This document shows, piece after piece, positions 2,028-10,524 of a stretch of 10,524 nucleotides of DNA. The stretch is from Nocardia sp. Lineage in GTDB: Bacteria > Actinomycetota > Actinomycetes > Mycobacteriales > Mycobacteriaceae. The stretch is from assembly GCA_013361595.1 (NCBI GenBank), contig JABFXT010000010.1, positions 1-10,524 on the forward strand, read 5' to 3'. Position 1 is the first letter of the stretch. Every line of letters starts with the position of its first letter. The notes below the pieces were generated by a model. It was not told where the DNA came from. It worked only from the letters and a program-made list of their open reading frames with translations, and did no database searches. Both the position numbers and the translations under genes were made by a program.

Positions 2028-2048
2028 CTCTCCCATCCAGCGGGAGCG
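2028..2048. promoter_or_regulatory. Distal operator-like site upstream of the dehydrogenase pair
   Basis: CTCCC (2030-2034) and GGGAG (2042-2046) are separated by 7 bases, the same spacing as in the perfect palindrome at 10389-10409. It matches that palindrome at 14 of 21 positions by my count, and shares CAGCGGGAG with the second site of the divergent promoter. Its centre is 30 bp upstream of the proximal site at 2068. It may be a second, weaker binding site for the same regulator. Confidence 0.4.
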
Positions 2049-2057
2049 GTGTAGGTC

Positions 2058-2111
2058 ACGGCCCGGTGACCGGGAAGATCGAGCGCGCCGGAAATCCGGC
2101 GGATCTAGCGT
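2058..2111 (+). promoter_or_regulatory. Promoter of the dehydrogenase operon: proximal operator plus -10 box
   Basis: A perfect 13-bp palindrome, CCCGGTGACCGGG, at 2062-2074 has the same core as the operator at 10389-10409 read on the other strand. TAGCGT at 2106-2111 is a good TANNNT -10 box. The operator centre (2068) is 40.5 bp from the -10 centre (2108.5), identical to both promoters in the 10355-10480 region. A start near 2118 gives a leader of about 30 nt to the ATG at 2148. No good -35 is seen, which fits an activator-dependent promoter. Confidence 0.6.
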
Positions 2112-2946: not shown

Positions 2947-3774
2947 ATGGGACGGGTTTCGGGCAAGGTAGCGCTGATCACCGGCGCGGCACGGGGAATC
3001 GGCCGGGCACAGGCGGTCCGGCTGGCCGAGGAGGGCGCCGATATCGTCGCCCTGGATATCTGCGGACCGGTGGAGACGGTGATCATCCCGCCCGCCACCG
3101 AGGACGATCTGGCGCAGACGGTGCGCGCCGTCGAGAAGACCGGAGCGCGAATCGTCGCCGCCACGGTCGACGTCCGCGACGGCGCAGCCCTCCGGGCGGC
3201 CACCGACGCGGCGGTGAACGAATTCGGCGCCCTCGATATCGTCTGCGCCACCGCCGGGATAACCTCCAGCGCCCCCGGCCTGCAACTGACCGAAGAGCAG
3301 TGGCGCACCATGCTGGACGTCAACCTGACCGGTGTCTGGCAGACCTGCAAGGCCACCGCCCCACATCTCATCGCCCGCGGCGGCGGATCGATGATCCTGA
3401 CCAGCTCGATCGCGGGCCTGGTCGGCCTGGTCGGGGTGGCGCACTACACGGCCGCCAAACACGGCGTGGTCGGACTGATGCGCTCGCTGGCACAAGAGCT
3501 GGCACCGCACGGGGTCCGGGTGAACTCGGTACACCCCACCAATGTGGACACTCCGATGATCCAGAACGATATGGTCCGCCGCTCGTTCCGGCCCGACCGC
3601 GAAAACCCCACGCGCGAGGAATTCGCCGAGGCCGCGACCACCATGAACATGCTGCCCATTCCCTGGGTGGAGCCGGTGGATATCGCCAACGCGTCCTTGT
3701 TCCTGGCCTCCGAGGAAGCTCGCTACATCACTGCGGTAACCCTTCCGGTCGACGCCGGCAGCACCCAGCGATAG
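2947..3774 (+). CDS. Mycofactocin-coupled SDR family oxidoreductase
   Basis: An SDR of 275 aa with TGAARGIG (12-19), Asp37, and catalytic Asn126, Ser153 or Ser154, Tyr167 and Lys171. After the second strand it has an insertion, ICGPVETVIIPPATEDDLAQ (38-57), of the kind that marks the mycofactocin-associated SDR family, to which carveol dehydrogenase belongs. In that family NAD is held tightly and re-oxidised through mycofactocin; no mycofactocin biosynthesis genes lie in this window. The usual NNAG motif is altered to ATAG at 101-104. The ATG follows the previous stop by one base, and AGAAGG upstream lies inside the previous gene, so translation is probably coupled. A strong hairpin begins 15 bases after the stop. 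It likely oxidises an alcohol of the same catabolic pathway; the exact substrate cannot be read from sequence. Confidence 0.92.
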   Translation: MGRVSGKVALITGAARGIGRAQAVRLAEEGADIVALDICGPVETVIIPPATEDDLAQTVRAVEKTGARIVAATVDVRDGAALRAATDAAVNEFGALDIVCATAGITSSAPGLQLTEEQWRTMLDVNLTGVWQTCKATAPHLIARGGGSMILTSSIAGLVGLVGVAHYTAAKHGVVGLMRSLAQELAPHGVRVNSVHPTNVDTPMIQNDMVRRSFRPDRENPTREEFAEAATTMNMLPIPWVEPVDIANASLFLASEEARYITAVTLPVDAGSTQR

Positions 3775-3901: not shown

Positions 3902-4645
3902 TCATACCTTCTGTTTCAAAGCGTCCCCTACTATTTCGAATGCACTTATATAGCTGTGCAATCGGCGTTGTTCGATGCGATCGATACGGGCGTGCAGTTG
4001 GTACGGCGTGCCGTCGATGAACATGACCTCCTCTTCGTCCGGATCGGCCGACCACTCTTTCACGGACTTACCGGTAAACGACGCCATGGCTATGTGCACA
4101 TTGCCTCTTTTGAGTGCATATGGCCTGGTGGAAGTACTCATGAAGCCCAATTCGGTGATCACTGCGCCCTCGCGGTACCCGAGCAGCATTTCTTCCGGAA
4201 GATCGATATGCCGATACACGGTGCCCGGGCGATCCGGTAGCTTTCGAAGGGCAGACCGGAGGTCGGCGATATCGTGCTGGAAATCGATACCCCGGCCTTC
4301 ACGAAGAGCTGTATTGATCTCTGGGGAGCCGGTTCCGGTGTAGGTCTCGAGCGCCATGATCTCCCGTCGGGTCAGCTCCTGTCCCGGCAGTATCAGTCCC
4401 CCACCGGATCCGACCGGACGCGCAGACGTACCCGTTGCCGCGGGGTCGAATCCGAGGTCGCCTCGGTCACCCGCGGCGGCCACCGTGTTCGCTCCCCCGG
4501 CGCTCTCCCGGCCCATGGTCCGCAGCCTCGTAGACGCGCTGGCGGACAAGGCGTCCAGTGTCTGCTGGAGCTGCCCGGTCAGGTATTTCATGAGGTCATC
4601 CGGCAACCCGGAGGGCCCGGTCGACCGGATAGACGATGCCGCCAA
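3902..4645 (-). CDS. R-S-E type ADP-ribosyltransferase, putative toxin domain
   Basis: The C-terminal half (about 88-247 of 247) is an ADP-ribosyltransferase of the arginine-directed R-S-ExE class, which transfers ADP-ribose from NAD to a protein. The three signatures are visible: Arg145 (TVYRHI), the STS motif at 170-172 (FMSTSTRP), and Glu204-x-Glu206 (PDEEEVMFIDGTPYQL). Upstream helical text such as LTRREIMALETYTG (91-104) fits the domain's start. Residues 1-65 are Ala/Ser/Thr-rich and helical; 66-85 are Gly-rich, like a linker. The longest open start is a TTG at 4645; the first ATG is codon 19 (4591). Neither has a good ribosome site, and the frame continues upstream to an ATG at 4801 through one TGA, so the N-terminus may be damaged. 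The 3' third is visibly richer in A+T than the neighbours, suggesting separate acquisition. No adjacent immunity gene is evident. Confidence 0.8.
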   Translation of the reverse strand: MAASSIRSTGPSGLPDDLMKYLTGQLQQTLDALSASASTRLRTMGRESAGGANTVAAAGDRGDLGFDPAATGTSARPVGSGGGLILPGQELTRREIMALETYTGTGSPEINTALREGRGIDFQHDIADLRSALRKLPDRPGTVYRHIDLPEEMLLGYREGAVITELGFMSTSTRPYALKRGNVHIAMASFTGKSVKEWSADPDEEEVMFIDGTPYQLHARIDRIEQRRLHSYISAFEIVGDALKQKV

Positions 4646-4855: not shown

Positions 4856-5719
4856 TCAGGCCTTACGAGTCAGGAAGGCCATGACCGCCGATTCGAATGC
4901 GGCCTTCTGCTCGATCATCGCCCAGTGGCCGCAATCCGGGAACACGTGCAGTTCGGCGCGCGGAATCGTGCGCATCGGGATCAGTGCCATATCCAGCGGG
5001 CTCACCCGGTCGTCCCGACCCCAGGTGACCAGAGTCGGCGCCTCGACCTTGTGCAGCATCGCCCACGGGGGCGGGGTATCGGCGGCCTCCATGGCACGGA
5101 CCATCCCGGTGAACGCGGCCTTGCTGTACATGCGGCGGGCGCTGTCGAGGGTGGCCGGATCGGTGGCCTGGGCCCAGCGTTCCTCGATCATCTCCTCGGT
5201 CACCAGCGCCGGGTCGTAGACCATCGAATGCAGCCAGGCGATGAGCCGTTCCCGGGTGGGGTTCTCGGTGAAATCCTGGAGCAGCCGGATCCCCTCCCCG
5301 GGGCCCGGGCTGAAGATGTTCTTACCGATCCCGCCGATGGTGACGATCTAGCCGACCTGGTCGGGGTGCGCGAGCGCGGAGTTCAGGGCGACCCCGCCGC
5401 CCATCGAATTGCCGACGATATCGACCCGGTCCAGACCGAGCGCGTCGACGAACCGGACCACCGAGTCGAGGGCGGTGATCATCGGGTGGCCGCCGAAATC
5501 GTCGCTGACGCCGAATCCGGGGAACTCCAGGATCAGGGTGCGGAACCGTTCGGCGAAGAAGTCGAGGTTGCCGCGGAAATTGCGCCATCCGGTGACTCCC
5601 GGCCCGGAACCGTGCAACAGCAGCAGCGGCGTTCCTTCACCTGCTTCGTAGTACCGCAGCACTCCCGCGTCGGTGCGGACTTCGCGCAGTTCGTGTGCGG
5701 CGCTGGACTCCGATGTCAT
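4856..5719 (-). pseudogene. Meta-cleavage-product alpha/beta hydrolase (HsaD/BphD/MhpC type) interrupted by an in-frame TAG
   Basis: Read through, this is a 287-codon alpha/beta hydrolase of the family that cleaves C-C bonds in ring-opened dienones from steroid or aromatic catabolism. The oxyanion block LLLHGSGPG is at 33-41, the nucleophile Ser105 in GNSMGG (103-108), Asp237 in WGRDDRVSP (233-241), and His265 in CGHW (263-266); Asp237 and His265 coincide with BphD numbering from memory. Codon 124 is TAG (5350-5348), in the same frame as both halves. It replaces the residue after HPDQVG, where relatives carry Arg or Lys, so a single AAG-to-TAG change would explain it. The ATG at 5719 has GGAGG (5730-5726) 6 nt upstream. 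The first fragment has only the nucleophile and the second lacks it, so neither should be active unless the stop is read through or is a sequencing error. Confidence 0.88.
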
Positions 5720-5770
5720 CGTCGACCTCCATATCGGCATAGTTCGGTGGATCACGCTGCCACTTCCGGG

Positions 5771-5806
5771 CCGACCGCTCACCGGGTGTTCCCGGTGAGC
5801 GGTCGG
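5771..5806. terminator. Perfect 16-bp hairpin upstream of the hydrolase (terminator or operator)
   Basis: Arms CCGACCGCTCACCGGG (5771-5786) and CCCGGTGAGCGGTCGG (5791-5806) pair perfectly around TGTT. On the minus strand it lies 150 nt after the exported-peptide stop and about 50 nt before the hydrolase start. It could end transcription from upstream. It also contains TTCCCGGT, close to one half of the operator found at 10389-10409, so a regulatory site is an alternative. There is no T-tract. Confidence 0.5.
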
Positions 5807-6643: not shown

Positions 6644-8308
6644 TCACTCCTTCGTCGCGGCGTGGCGGGCGGCGATATAGCCGAACACCATCGCGGGTCC
6701 GATGGTGGCGCCGGCGCCCGCGTAGTCGTTGCCCATCACCGCGGCGGAGGTGTTGCCGGCGGCGTACAGGCCGGCTATCACGGACCCGTCCGGGCGCAGC
6801 ACCTGGGCATTTTCGTTGTACACCAGGCCACCCTTGGTGCCCAGGTCACCGATGCGGATCCGCAGGGCGTAGAACGGGCCGTGGTCGAGGAAGTCGAGGG
6901 TGGGGTGCGGCAGGGTCGGATCGCCGTAGTAGTTGTCGTAGGCGCTTTCACCACGGGCGAACTCGGCGTCGCGACCAGCCGGTACGGATTCGTTGTACCG
7001 GCGCAGGGTCGCTTCGAGCGCGTCGGCCGGTACGCCGATCGCCGCGGCGAGTTCGCCGACGGTGGCCGCGCTGCGGATCAGTCCCGCGGCGAGCCAGTCG
7101 GCGGGGAATTTCTGGCCGGGCAGAATTCCACCGATCGGATAGCGGCTCTTGGCCTTTCCGTCGAACAGCAGCCAGGCCGGGTCGTGACCACCGGCCAGCT
7201 GCGCGTGCACGAACGTCACATAGGGCGCTGCCTCGTTGGTGAACCGGGCACCCGAGCCGTCGACGATGATCGAGCGCGGGATCGACCGTTCCGAGACCAG
7301 GACCTGGTTGATTCCGTCGGGTCGCTGGAACGACGGCATCCACCACGCGTCGTCCATCAGATCCACCGCGGCACCGGCCTGTTCACCTGCGACGATACCG
7401 TCACCGGTGTTGTCGGTGGAGGCCGCGCTGAAGTTGTCGCGGCCGCCGAGCGGCAGATGCTGTTTACGCATGGCCTGGTTGTATTCGAAGCCGCCGGTCG
7501 CCAGCAGGACACCGTCGCGGGCCCGGATCCGGAATTCGCGACCGCCGCGCTCGGCGACCACACCCAGTACCGCCCCCGATTCGTCGGTGACCAGCGAACG
7601 CATCGGGGTGTTCAGCCACAGCGGCACCCCCGCGTCGCGCAGCGCCAGTCGCAGCCGGGCGATCAGAGCGCGACCGAGCGTATCCATATGCCGCCGCAGC
7701 ACAACGGCTTTCACTGCCCGCAACCCGGTGAGCAGGGCCGTCCAGCGGGCCTTCCACGAGCGGGTCACCATATTCAGCTGGACGAAATCCTTCGAGGTGA
7801 TGAACAGCCCCGGCGGCGTCGCGAGCGCCGCGGGACGCAGGAACTCCTCGTCGGCACCGAGTTTCCGCAGATCCACCGGCAGCGGTTCGATCGAACGGCC
7901 CGCCGGGCGGCCGCCGGGCGCTTCGGGATGGTAGTCGGAATAGCCGGTGCACCACTGGAACCGCAGATGTGGACCGGTGCGTTCCAGGAAGTCCAGCATG
8001 GCCGGGCCCTCGTCGATGAACGCGTCGAGATTGGCCGAAGGCACCCGGTCGCCGACCACCGCGTCCAGGTAGGCGCGGACATCGGCCCGGGAGTCGCCCA
8101 ACCCTTCGCGCAGCAGTACCGGGTTGTTCGGTACCCATACTCCACCACCGGACAGGGCCGTACTGCCGCCGTAGTAGCCGGCCTTCTCGATGACCAGGGT
8201 GTCCGAACCCCGGTCGGCGGCGGCCAGCGCGCCGGTGAGGCCACCGGCGCCGCTGCCCACGACCAGGAATCCCACCTCGTGATCCCAGTGCTGTTCGGTT
8301 GGGGACAC
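6644..8308 (-). CDS. kstD: 3-ketosteroid delta-1-dehydrogenase, M. tuberculosis Rv3537-like type
   Basis: An FAD flavoprotein of 554 aa that would introduce the C1-C2 double bond into 3-oxo-4-ene steroids. The N-terminal dinucleotide fold shows VVGSGAGGL (16-24), Glu41 for the ribose, and GGSTALSGGGVW (48-58). The segment GYSDYHPEAPGG (122-133) and overall length resemble M. tuberculosis KstD (Rv3537, from memory). Residues corresponding to the R. erythropolis KstD1 catalytic set are Tyr126 (active-site Tyr119), Tyr363 in NEAAPY (Tyr318), Tyr529 (Tyr487) and Gly533 (Gly491), in DYAGAGATIGPAM. Where relatives have YPGPG, this has YAGAG. The GTG start at 8308 lies 31 bases after the isomerase stop with AAAGAGA upstream. 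It sits in the operon between the isomerase and the four-cysteine protein. A closely related 3-oxosteroid desaturase activity remains possible. Confidence 0.88.
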   Translation of the reverse strand: MSPTEQHWDHEVGFLVVGSGAGGLTGALAAADRGSDTLVIEKAGYYGGSTALSGGGVWVPNNPVLLREGLGDSRADVRAYLDAVVGDRVPSANLDAFIDEGPAMLDFLERTGPHLRFQWCTGYSDYHPEAPGGRPAGRSIEPLPVDLRKLGADEEFLRPAALATPPGLFITSKDFVQLNMVTRSWKARWTALLTGLRAVKAVVLRRHMDTLGRALIARLRLALRDAGVPLWLNTPMRSLVTDESGAVLGVVAERGGREFRIRARDGVLLATGGFEYNQAMRKQHLPLGGRDNFSAASTDNTGDGIVAGEQAGAAVDLMDDAWWMPSFQRPDGINQVLVSERSIPRSIIVDGSGARFTNEAAPYVTFVHAQLAGGHDPAWLLFDGKAKSRYPIGGILPGQKFPADWLAAGLIRSAATVGELAAAIGVPADALEATLRRYNESVPAGRDAEFARGESAYDNYYGDPTLPHPTLDFLDHGPFYALRIRIGDLGTKGGLVYNENAQVLRPDGSVIAGLYAAGNTSAAVMGNDYAGAGATIGPAMVFGYIAARHAATKE

Positions 8309-8339: not shown

Positions 8340-8711
8340 TCAGCCGAAGCTGATGTCCTCGGAGGACCAGAACGCGCGCATGCTGGTGATCCGCGCGTCC
8401 TCGTCGAAGGTCATGACGTCGATGGGTTCGACGGTGATGGTCCGGTCACCGGTTTCGGTGACCACCCGGAAGCCGAAGGCCGCGCTGTCGCCGCTGACCC
8501 GCAGGCTGAGCAGTTCGGTACTGCGGCGCGCGGATTCGAGGCTTCCGTAGAACTTCTCGATGGCCGCGCGGCCGGTGTGCGACGGACTGCCCACCGGGTC
8601 TTCCAGGGTGGCGTTCTCGTCGTAGAGGGCGGCGATATCGGCCGCCGTGCCGGTGGCGACGGCGTCGAGGTAGCGGCGGACGGCCGCGCGGATACGGTCG
8701 GGTTCGGGCAT
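8340..8711 (-). CDS. ksi: Steroid delta-5-isomerase (ketosteroid isomerase)
   Basis: A 123-aa protein of the SnoaL/NTF2-like fold that moves the double bond of 3-oxo-5-ene steroids to the 4-ene position. It lines up along its length with Comamonas testosteroni KSI as I recall it: Tyr14 (VRRYLDAV), Asp38 (ATLEDPVGS) and Asp98 (EPIDVM) correspond to the family's Tyr14, Asp38 and Asp99. The blocks GRAAIEKFY, SAAFGF and SMRAF are also shared. Keeping this whole set separates it from general SnoaL-like proteins. The ATG at 8711 has AGGA 8 nt upstream and fits the family's N-terminus; a longer frame from 8786 would overlap the preceding stop and adds nothing KSI-like. It lies between two KstD genes on the same strand. 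A 6-bp GC hairpin (8732-8754) in the preceding 71-nt gap is too weak to call a terminator. Confidence 0.9.
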   Translation of the reverse strand: MPEPDRIRAAVRRYLDAVATGTAADIAALYDENATLEDPVGSPSHTGRAAIEKFYGSLESARRSTELLSLRVSGDSAAFGFRVVTETGDRTITVEPIDVMTFDEDARITSMRAFWSSEDISFG

Positions 8712-8782: not shown

Positions 8783-10318
8783 TCAACGGCCGAGGATGTC
8801 GAGTACGGCGAGATGACCGAACAGCATCGAAGCGCCGATCGGATTGCCGCCGCCGGGATACACGGTGCCGCTGACCGCGGCCATGGTGTTGCCCGCGGCG
8901 TAGAGACCGGGAATCGGCGCGCCGTCGCGGCCGAGCACGCGGGCCGCGGTATCGGTCCGCAACCCGCCCTTGGTACCGAGATCGGACAGGCCGAAGGCGG
9001 CAGCGTGGAAGGGCCCGCGCTCGATCGGCACCAACGGCGGTTCCCCTTCGGAGAACGCGCGGTCGTAGGCCTCGTCGCCGCGGCCGAAATCGGTATCGGC
9101 GCCGGCGGCGACCATCGCGTTGTACCGCCGCACCGTCTCGACCAGGTTCGCGGGCGGTACGCCGATGACCGCGGCCAGTTCCTCCAGCGTGTCGGCGGTA
9201 TGCCAGAGCCCGGCGGCCTCGTACTTCTCGGTTTCGACCATCGAGACGTTGGTGGCCTGTACCGGGGGGCGCACGCCGTCCCGATCGTCGTAGATCATCC
9301 AGTACGGCAGGGTCAGGGTGCCGTCGCGCAGCCGGTCGAGCGCCGCCCGGCCGAGCCGGTCGTAGGGCGCGGATTCGTTGACGAAGCGTTTACCGTCCTG
9401 GTCGACGAAGATCCCGCCGGTGAACCAGAGCGCGAAGGCCGACCGGCCGTCCGGATGGGTGAGCCCGGGCGACCACCACGCCTGGTCCATCAGATCGGTA
9501 TCGGCCCCGGCGGCGATACCCGCCCGATGCGCCTTACCCAGGTTTCCGGGCGGACCCATCGTGTCGCGGGCGGCACCGGGGACGCCGTAGTGGCTGCGCA
9601 TCTCGTCGTTGCCTTCGAACCCGCCGGCCGCGAGCACCACACCGCGCCGGGCCCGGATCGCGACGGTGCCCTCGGGTCGTTCGATCCGCGCGCCGATCAC
9701 CGCCCCGGCCTCGACGATCAACTCCACCAGCGCGGCGTTCCGGTACAGACGGACCTCCGGGTAGGTCGACAGTGCCCGCAGGAAGCGGCCGATCAGTGCC
9801 TGTCCGCCGATCAGGAGCTCCGGTGGTTCGGCGCCGAGCCGGTCGGTGTCCAGCGGACCGCGCAAGTGTTCACGGAGGTCACCGAGTTCGGCGGCCGGTA
9901 ACGGGACGGGGACGATATGGCGCTGCCCGTCCAGCCGTGCTTTCGGGGCCGCGCCGAAATAGTCCGGCCAGGGGTACATCTGGAATTCGAAATGCGCGTC
10001 GCTCTCCAGGTATTCGACGAGATCGCGGCCGCGGCGCACATAGGTTTCCTGGAGTTCGGGCGGCGTCCGGTCCCCCACCACCGCGCGGTAATAGATGAGC
10101 GCGTCGTCGAGGGTGTCGTCGGTACCGGCGCGCTCGAGCACCGGGTTACACGGGAACCAGACCCCGCCGCCGCCCGAGTACGCGGTGGTACCACCGAATT
10201 TGTCGGTCGCCTCCACCACGGCCACCGACAGACCCTCCCGTGCCGCGGTGTAGGCGCCGGCGAGCCCGCCACCCGAACCCGCCACCAGCACATCCACTTC
10301 GTCGTCGAAGTCCACCAC
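8783..10318 (-). CDS. kstD: 3-ketosteroid delta-1-dehydrogenase, R. erythropolis KstD1-like type
   Basis: An FAD flavoprotein of 511 aa, nearly the length of R. erythropolis KstD1 (510 aa). FAD-binding motifs: LVAGSGGGLAGAYTAA (11-26), Glu36, and FGGTTAYSGG (41-50). The four catalytic positions of KstD1 are all present: Tyr120 in WPDYF (Tyr119), Tyr319 in NESAPYDRLG (Tyr318), and Tyr487 and Gly491 in the segment TVYPGGGNPIGAS, at the same numbers as in KstD1 (numbering from memory). GGFEGNDEM (232-240) and SDLGTKGG (445-452) are also family blocks. It should oxidise 3-oxo steroids at C1-C2. It starts at GTG 10318, immediately followed by a second GTG, with GAGGAGG 10 nt upstream. It is the first gene of the minus-strand operon and is driven by the operator-bearing divergent promoter. 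It is a distinct subfamily from the second KstD, not a recent duplicate. Confidence 0.88.
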   Translation of the reverse strand: MVDFDDEVDVLVAGSGGGLAGAYTAAREGLSVAVVEATDKFGGTTAYSGGGGVWFPCNPVLERAGTDDTLDDALIYYRAVVGDRTPPELQETYVRRGRDLVEYLESDAHFEFQMYPWPDYFGAAPKARLDGQRHIVPVPLPAAELGDLREHLRGPLDTDRLGAEPPELLIGGQALIGRFLRALSTYPEVRLYRNAALVELIVEAGAVIGARIERPEGTVAIRARRGVVLAAGGFEGNDEMRSHYGVPGAARDTMGPPGNLGKAHRAGIAAGADTDLMDQAWWSPGLTHPDGRSAFALWFTGGIFVDQDGKRFVNESAPYDRLGRAALDRLRDGTLTLPYWMIYDDRDGVRPPVQATNVSMVETEKYEAAGLWHTADTLEELAAVIGVPPANLVETVRRYNAMVAAGADTDFGRGDEAYDRAFSEGEPPLVPIERGPFHAAAFGLSDLGTKGGLRTDTAARVLGRDGAPIPGLYAAGNTMAAVSGTVYPGGGNPIGASMLFGHLAVLDILGR

Positions 10319-10354
10319 TGCTCCACCGCCTCCTCGCGCTGACCTGCCGAGGCC

Positions 10355-10409
10355 GACGGTAGGGCCGGTATCCGGCGCGCGCGAACGCTTCTCCCGGTCA
10401 CCGGGAGAA
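10355..10409 (-). promoter_or_regulatory. Promoter and perfect-palindrome operator of the kstD-ksi-kstD operon
   Basis: On the minus strand, TACCGT at 10361-10356, inside CCCTACCGTC (10364-10355), is a TANNNT -10 box. A start near 10349 gives a leader of about 31 nt. The operator at 10389-10409 is a perfect palindrome with 10-bp arms TTCTCCCGGT and ACCGGGAGAA around one central C. Its centre (10399) is 40.5 bp from the -10 centre, roughly -50 from the start site. This is upstream of the -35 position and typical of activators. The expected -35 is poor. Confidence 0.65.
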
Positions 10410-10425
10410 CCCGCGAATCAGCTGA

Positions 10426-10480
10426 ATGTGCCGGTCAGCGGGAGAAGGGCGTCCCGCGCGGGCGAGCTCTCCCTACCGTC
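10426..10480 (+). promoter_or_regulatory. Divergent promoter with second operator copy
   Basis: The site at 10426-10446 matches the perfect operator in direct orientation at 17 of 21 positions; CCGGTCA and GCGGGAGAA (10431-10437 and 10438-10446) are intact. TACCGT at 10474-10479 lies within the same ten bases, CCCTACCGTC, as the opposite promoter. The operator centre (10436) to -10 centre (10476.5) distance is again 40.5 bp. The predicted leader is about 32 nt to the GTG at 10519. Confidence 0.6.
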
Positions 10481-10518
10481 GCAGCAGAACACCGGACACC
10501 CGAGCAGCTGGAGGCACT

Positions 10519-10524
10519 GTGAAC
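10519..10524 (+). CDS. Start of a divergent gene, cut by the window edge
   Basis: GTG AAC at the last six bases is preceded by GGAGG (10510-10514) with 4-nt spacing, and by a promoter whose predicted leader length matches the opposite operon. Only two codons are present, so the product cannot be guessed. Sharing the operator region with the steroid operon, it may be another catabolic gene or the regulator itself. Confidence 0.6.

Follow-up and report, generated by a model that had tools for sequence, protein, structure and literature searches.

A candidate IclR-type activator regulon with a fixed operator/-10 box geometry in a steroid gene cluster of Nocardia sp.

Three promoters of a steroid gene cluster in Nocardia sp. 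share one arrangement, in which a palindromic operator is centered 40.5 bp from a -10-like box, and the three operator-box pairs and their geometry are real in the sequence of the window (the whole stretch of 10,524 nucleotides analyzed here, from contig JABFXT010000010.1). We consider it probable that each site is a regulator-bound operator in an activator-type promoter and that a dimer of the IclR-family protein encoded in the cluster would switch the three promoters on together. The sites, their geometry, their conservation in relatives and the gene families were all computed.

Results

The gene set of the cluster fits a progesterone-type steroid pathway as inferred from gene families. Two mycofactocin-coupled short-chain dehydrogenases lie on the + strand, SDR1 (2148-2945; TIGR03971, 313.1 bits against a cut-off of 300) and SDR2 (2947-3774; TIGR03971, 394 bits against 300), and the - strand carries the 3-ketosteroid dehydrogenase-like flavoproteins KstD1 (8783-10318; 424.5 bits with PDB 4c3x) and KstD2 (6644-8308; 375.9 bits with PDB 7p18) together with a SnoaL-like protein related to steroid delta-isomerase (8340-8711; 71.2 bits with PDB 1ocv; Pfam SnoaL_2). 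The window ends on the first two codons of a Baeyer-Villiger monooxygenase (BVMO; 10519-10524, + strand), which continues on contig C803 (L011:170-1792). Positions 1-175 of that contig re-read window positions 10350-10524 with two differences, perhaps strain variation in the assembly, and the contig carries the cluster on with BVMO and, downstream of it, a PadR-family gene (L011:1875-2558); beyond BVMO there is also a hormone-sensitive-lipase-type esterase (LipP1 family, 352.5 bits against a cut-off of 350). The BVMO protein matches the steroid monooxygenase of Rhodococcus rhodochrous (PDB 4aos) with 892.7 bits over residues 7-539 of 540 and, from this near full-length match, is a predicted steroid monooxygenase. 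Such an enzyme converts progesterone to testosterone acetate (PMC12239570, accessible part). An esterase, a hydroxysteroid dehydrogenase and KstD would take this product on toward ring degradation.

Three further reading frames lie in the window. On the - strand at 4856-5782, an alpha/beta-hydrolase frame is open but for one in-frame stop codon, and hydrolase relatives at the same place in the cluster match both pieces of it; the stop is either a true pseudogene mutation or an assembly error. Inside the steroid cluster, an open reading frame on the - strand (3902-4645) has an ADP-ribosyltransferase exoenzyme domain (PF03496, E 3.9e-9), and between a zinc alcohol dehydrogenase gene and SDR1 there is a frame with an FGE-sulfatase domain (1303-1977, + strand; PF03781). 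No relative of either of these two was found in 80 kstD1 loci at E 1e-5.

The initial annotation had placed the start of SDR1 at 2148, and the relatives agree: 25 of 27 aligned SDR1 relatives have an ATG at this position, and the remaining two alignments begin later. A start at 2130 is ruled out by an ATG in just 3 of the 27 and by an in-frame stop between the 2130 and 2148 positions in three loci (L060-L062). Transcripts are expected to start 6 to 9 nt after a -10 box, so the SDR1 leader would be about 30 nt long.

Upstream of SDR1, operator O3 (GCCCGGTGACCGGGA; 2061-2075, + strand, center 2068) contains the palindromic core CCCGGTGACCGGG at 2062-2074, and the TAGCGT box of the SDR promoter (2106-2111, + strand, center 2108.5) stands 40.5 bp from it, center to center, as first described. 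At the kstD1 promoter, operator O1 is perfect, with 10-bp arms (10389-10409, - strand, center 10399; core CCCGGTCACCGGG at 10393-10405), and a TACCGT box (10356-10361, - strand) lies 40.5 bp from its center. The BVMO promoter has a second, imperfect operator, O2 (GCCGGTCAGCGGG), which covers 10429-10443 on the + strand (TGCCGGTCAGCGGGA, center 10436), and its TACCGT box (10474-10479, + strand) is again at 40.5 bp. The initial annotation had equated the geometry before SDR1 with that of both divergent promoters; the distance of 40.5 bp does hold at each, but two operators serve them. The right-hand box (10474-10479) is 77.5 bp from O1 and 40.5 bp from O2, and a single operator common to both divergent promoters is ruled out by the separate positions of O1 and O2. 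Since each promoter has its own operator at 40.5 bp, there are three operator-box pairs and not one operator for two promoters.

The genome-wide search proposed earlier was run on the Nocardia sp. assembly (5.18 Mb, 908 contigs, 78.2% complete) with the two-part pattern CCGGTSASCGGG-N31-TASCGT at up to three mismatches. It returned 237 matches, of which 5 were perfect, 1 had one mismatch, 27 had two and, by subtraction, 204 had three; the perfect matches are the three promoters and two re-reads on the overlapping contig C803. The 13-mer core CCCGGTNACCGGG by itself occurs at 10 places in the 5.18 Mb (one of them, on C803, re-reads O1), several with flanks that resemble coding sequence as judged by eye, and is thus common without the box. 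We reject it as a marker of the regulon: at hits away from the kstD1, BVMO and SDR1 promoters, no TASSGT was found at 40.5 or 41.5 bp in the stretches re-read from this genome, N. sienata and N. cyriacigeorgica, which cover part of the places. A wider operator pattern gave 24 oriented hits (27 less 3 on C803), and 3 of the 24, those at the three promoters, have a box at exactly 40.5 bp, for which a TASSGT background of 0.00026 per position in relatives gives a probability of about 4e-8. Because the boxes helped to define the finding, conservation in relatives is stronger evidence than this value. A separate operator-like site, alike in this genome and N. sienata (L189 and L227), has TAGCGT at 32.5 bp and perhaps belongs to a different promoter type.

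A search with KstD1 led to 80 named loci, the nearest being those of Nocardia sienata, N. rhamnosiphila and N. testacea (92%). The relatives, and hence the counts that follow, are not mutually independent. With up to two mismatches allowed, sites precede kstD1 in 36 loci, SDR1 in 22, BVMO in 19 and other genes in 6, and one more SDR1-type site, filed under SDR2, is found in L051. Operator cores with at most one mismatch occur at 153 places in 1.62 Mb; 40 boxes stand 40.5 bp from such a core, 12 stand at 41.5 bp, and 29 others lie at 45.5 bp (1), 68-85 bp (27) and 101.5 bp (1), those at 68-85 bp being, by our reading, mostly shadows of the neighboring promoter. When repeats were removed, 106 stretches held 3043 oriented operator-like places, with 58 boxes at 40.5 bp, 35 at 41.5 bp and 8 at 39.5 bp; at the other distances between 12.5 and 67.5 bp, the mean count was 0.6 and the maximum 3. 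As a control, 2.11 Mb of reversed sequence scanned in the same way yielded 1 site. The motif at its spacing is thus well above background in relatives. The claim of an exact spacing needs loosening: it is 40.5 bp at all three promoters of the window, but 40.5 or 41.5 bp and sometimes 39.5 bp in relatives.

These numbers bear on the simplest alternative, that the third instance before SDR1 is a chance match in GC-rich DNA. The 13-mer does turn up often without a box, but the two-part motif is rare, O3 is kept before SDR1 orthologs in the 22 loci and L051, and both the spacing histogram and the reversed control speak against chance, which we regard as refuted and give next to no weight. The proposal of a small regulon with a defined operator/-10 geometry that would join the SDR and kstD operons is supported by the genome-wide search suggested at the outset, in which, re-reads aside, the three promoters alone matched perfectly, and by the kstD1, SDR1 and BVMO promoters all keeping the arrangement in relatives. 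Two mycobacteria show this geometry upstream of an acyl-CoA synthetase-like gene as well (L101:13046 and L110:13330).

Column conservation was calculated from 25 and 22 nonredundant sites of the two spacings. Conservation in both sets extends over the operator and the box region CCTASCGTCG; for the letters of the core and box it is partly built in, since the sites were found by these letters; conservation outside the search pattern comprises an A at +7, GA at +9/+10 and the letters around the box. From column +11 to column +35, the information content does not exceed 0.6 bits in either set, so no conserved -35 element stands out.

The initial annotation named no regulator. The most likely candidate is the IclR-family protein of the cluster, in view of the PobR-like motif and of sites that lie beside iclR. 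Its gene is partial in this assembly (L011:5550-6101, - strand), with PF01614 at C803:5664-6098, and is cut by the contig end; full-length orthologs carry HTH_IclR and IclR_C. A full-length ortholog (at least 70% identity) was found in 17 of the 35 genomes searched, and in 15 of these 17 the stretches read hold a site with a TASSGT box, the two without being L178 and L176, the latter having only a weaker TATTGT box. Counting against IclR, a kstD1 site is also present in 10 of the 18 genomes that lack a full-length ortholog (11 if L244 is included); it is perfect in one of the ten (L050) and has one or two mismatches in the other nine. A partial IclR match of 70-72% over about 150 residues was found in 3 of the 18 (G003, G004 and G030).

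We also read 15 regions around IclR genes; two of these genes (L179 and L180) are more distant relatives, and the others are 13 of the 17 orthologs. Ten of the 15 hold a site when a looser box is allowed: before a MaoC-like gene in L167 and L169-L172; before the MaoC-like gene, SDR1 and BVMO in L168; before BVMO in L173 and L177; before kstD1 and BVMO in L181 (the same stretch as L074); and with a weaker box in L176. No site was found, even with the looser box, in the iclR regions L174, L175, L178, L179 and L180. A site lies near an iclR gene that is on another contig than the kstD1 found in the KstD1 search in Skermania (L167), R. tukisamuensis (L170) and M. chlorophenolicum (L173), and near one about 55 kb from that kstD1 in N. 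donostiensis (L168); L169, L171 and L172 were excluded as distant cases because iclR there belongs, or may belong, to a more remote portion of one and the same cluster. The occurrence of sites beside iclR even far from kstD1 favors IclR as the regulator. Among the regions of more distant IclR relatives, 1 of 11 has a site, and no operator was found before kshA in the 8 of these 11 that bear kshA.

The ten genomes with a kstD1 site and no full-length ortholog are what speaks for another regulator encoded elsewhere, such as an IclR paralog, a LuxR-type protein or another helix-turn-helix protein, in which case the regulon would be real but the local IclR would not be its controller. The genomes offer many IclR paralogs (4 to 32 matches each), but the perfect sites, L050 apart, are in genomes or loci that bear the ortholog or in ones outside the ortholog test, and the adjoining of sites to iclR on other contigs also argues against a regulator elsewhere. 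We judge this alternative unlikely.

The MaoC-like gene is likely a further member of the regulon. The geometry recurs before it near iclR at L167:5964, L168:13987, L169:6016, L170:11435 and L171:6017, and in L169, kshA starts on the opposite side of the MaoC-side site. The label MaoC-like is our own, given from the sequence, the L169 copy having no Pfam or NCBIfam match, and in L172 the call was made through a site near-identical to that of L171. In N. sienata, a co-directional series of genes runs from kshA through an acyl-CoA-dehydrogenase-like gene and a bphC-like gene to iclR, with kshA upstream of iclR; an operator-like sequence precedes kshA but deviates in its spacing and in its box, which rules it out as a strict member of the regulon. 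The Nocardia sp. genome has just a 69% fragment of kshA and weaker matches, and the iclR side of the cluster is therefore unreadable in this assembly.

The PadR-family protein (L011:1875-2558) is a second local candidate, and IclR could merely travel with the cluster while PadR binds the operators. Most of the cluster-bearing loci have PadR in linkage with BVMO or kstD1, and a relative with at least 204 bits is found in 16 of the 17 genomes tested. The exceptions point the other way: one genome (G016, L075) has a kstD1 site and a best PadR match of only 51 bits, and in L089 and L117, kstD1 has PadR close by but lacks a site. PadR proteins usually recognize AT-rich sites of the form ATGT-N8-ACAT; no such sequence was seen by eye in the operator core, and the motif resembles the IclR/PobR form. 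PadR is thus less likely as the binder, with a low probability in our estimate.

Discussion

Binding, activation, the identity of the regulator, the inducer and the transcript start are what we infer from the sequences, with the following picture as the preferred one. A dimeric regulator, most likely the cluster IclR, would bind a site close to TCCCGRTSANCGGGA, whose center lies some 50 bp upstream of the transcript start and always on one face of the helix, and the bound regulator would recruit RNA polymerase to a TASCGT -10 box with no conserved -35 element. One regulator would in this way coactivate the SDR1-SDR2, kstD1-snoaL-kstD2 and BVMO promoters, whose genes together would suit the degradation of progesterone-like steroids, and the inducer would probably be a steroid or an intermediate.

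Traits of activator-dependent promoters are present in that the operator lies upstream of the -35 region at 40.5 or 41.5 bp in fixed phase and no -35 element is conserved. The missing -35 suggests an activator near -50, and together with the fixed phase and the conserved -10 box, this position fits an activator that touches RNA polymerase. Repressors more often cover the -35 or -10 element, and an operator that is centered some 50 bp upstream of the expected start, clear of both elements, in strict phase and with no conserved -35, makes it improbable that a repressor binds the site and that the inducer acts by derepression instead of activation. The IclR family does include repressors and dual regulators (PMC8222616, accessible part), which speaks in favor of repression.

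Accounts of steroid degradation in actinobacteria usually center on the repressors KstR and KstR2, which belong to the TetR family and with one regulator and one palindrome control kstD, kshA and related steroid genes. The system proposed here resembles theirs in placing steroid genes under one regulator and a palindrome, but the KstR and KstR2 motifs are others, the KstR-type palindrome being AT-containing, whereas here a GC-rich, IclR-like motif occupies an activator position. A wider reading, which we hold tentatively and judge slightly more apt to fail than to hold, is that C21 steroids (progesterone-type) might have a regulon of their own under an IclR-family activator, apart from KstR, across Nocardia, Skermania, Gordonia, Rhodococcus and mycobacteria, with a rigidly spaced operator in lieu of a -35 element, and that BVMO and the ketosteroid dehydrogenases would thereby be coupled to mycofactocin-dependent dehydrogenases.

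The closest known systems are the IclR-family regulators PobR, PcaU and GenR of catabolic operons. Their group-1 sites are odd-centered palindromes of the GTNCG-N5-6-CGNAC type with a consensus of GKTYCRYW3-4RYGRAMC (PMC8222616, accessible part), and the operator described here resembles them. In a comparison by eye with this consensus, the operator core agrees with the PobR site TTGTCCGATSATCGGACAR, while the outer positions differ (TCCC...GGGA); the core CCGATSATCGG is common to the PobR site and sites in some relatives, with an exact match, for example, in L068. PobR and PcaU are activators, according to the title of Kok 1998 in the references of PMC8222616. In contrast to PobR, PcaU and GenR, the genes here are for steroids and not aromatic acids, the outer arms are GC-rich and at least three promoters share one fixed spacing. 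In the pdc cluster of Caenibius tardaugens, a progesterone Baeyer-Villiger monooxygenase likewise lies beside regulator genes, but these are of the TetR/AcrR and LuxR types and the other gene content differs (PMC12239570, accessible part).

The literature on the Rhodococcus rhodochrous steroid monooxygenase, in its accessible parts, describes the enzyme and not a promoter or regulator. IclR occurs only in the reference list in the accessible part of PMC8281962, and those of PMC12285266 and PMC13273656 have no bearing on the operator/box geometry. Searches of an open-licence collection turned up no article that links IclR with this pathway or this motif; an IclR-type catabolic regulon is a kind already known, and for this instance no description was found in those searches.

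The fixed geometry offers a simple sequence rule for finding further targets of the regulon. If the proposed mechanism is true, a compact promoter of this type would be of use for steroid biosensors and bioconversion, and a separate positive switch for the progesterone-type pathway would account for the sensing of hormone-like steroids by these bacteria.
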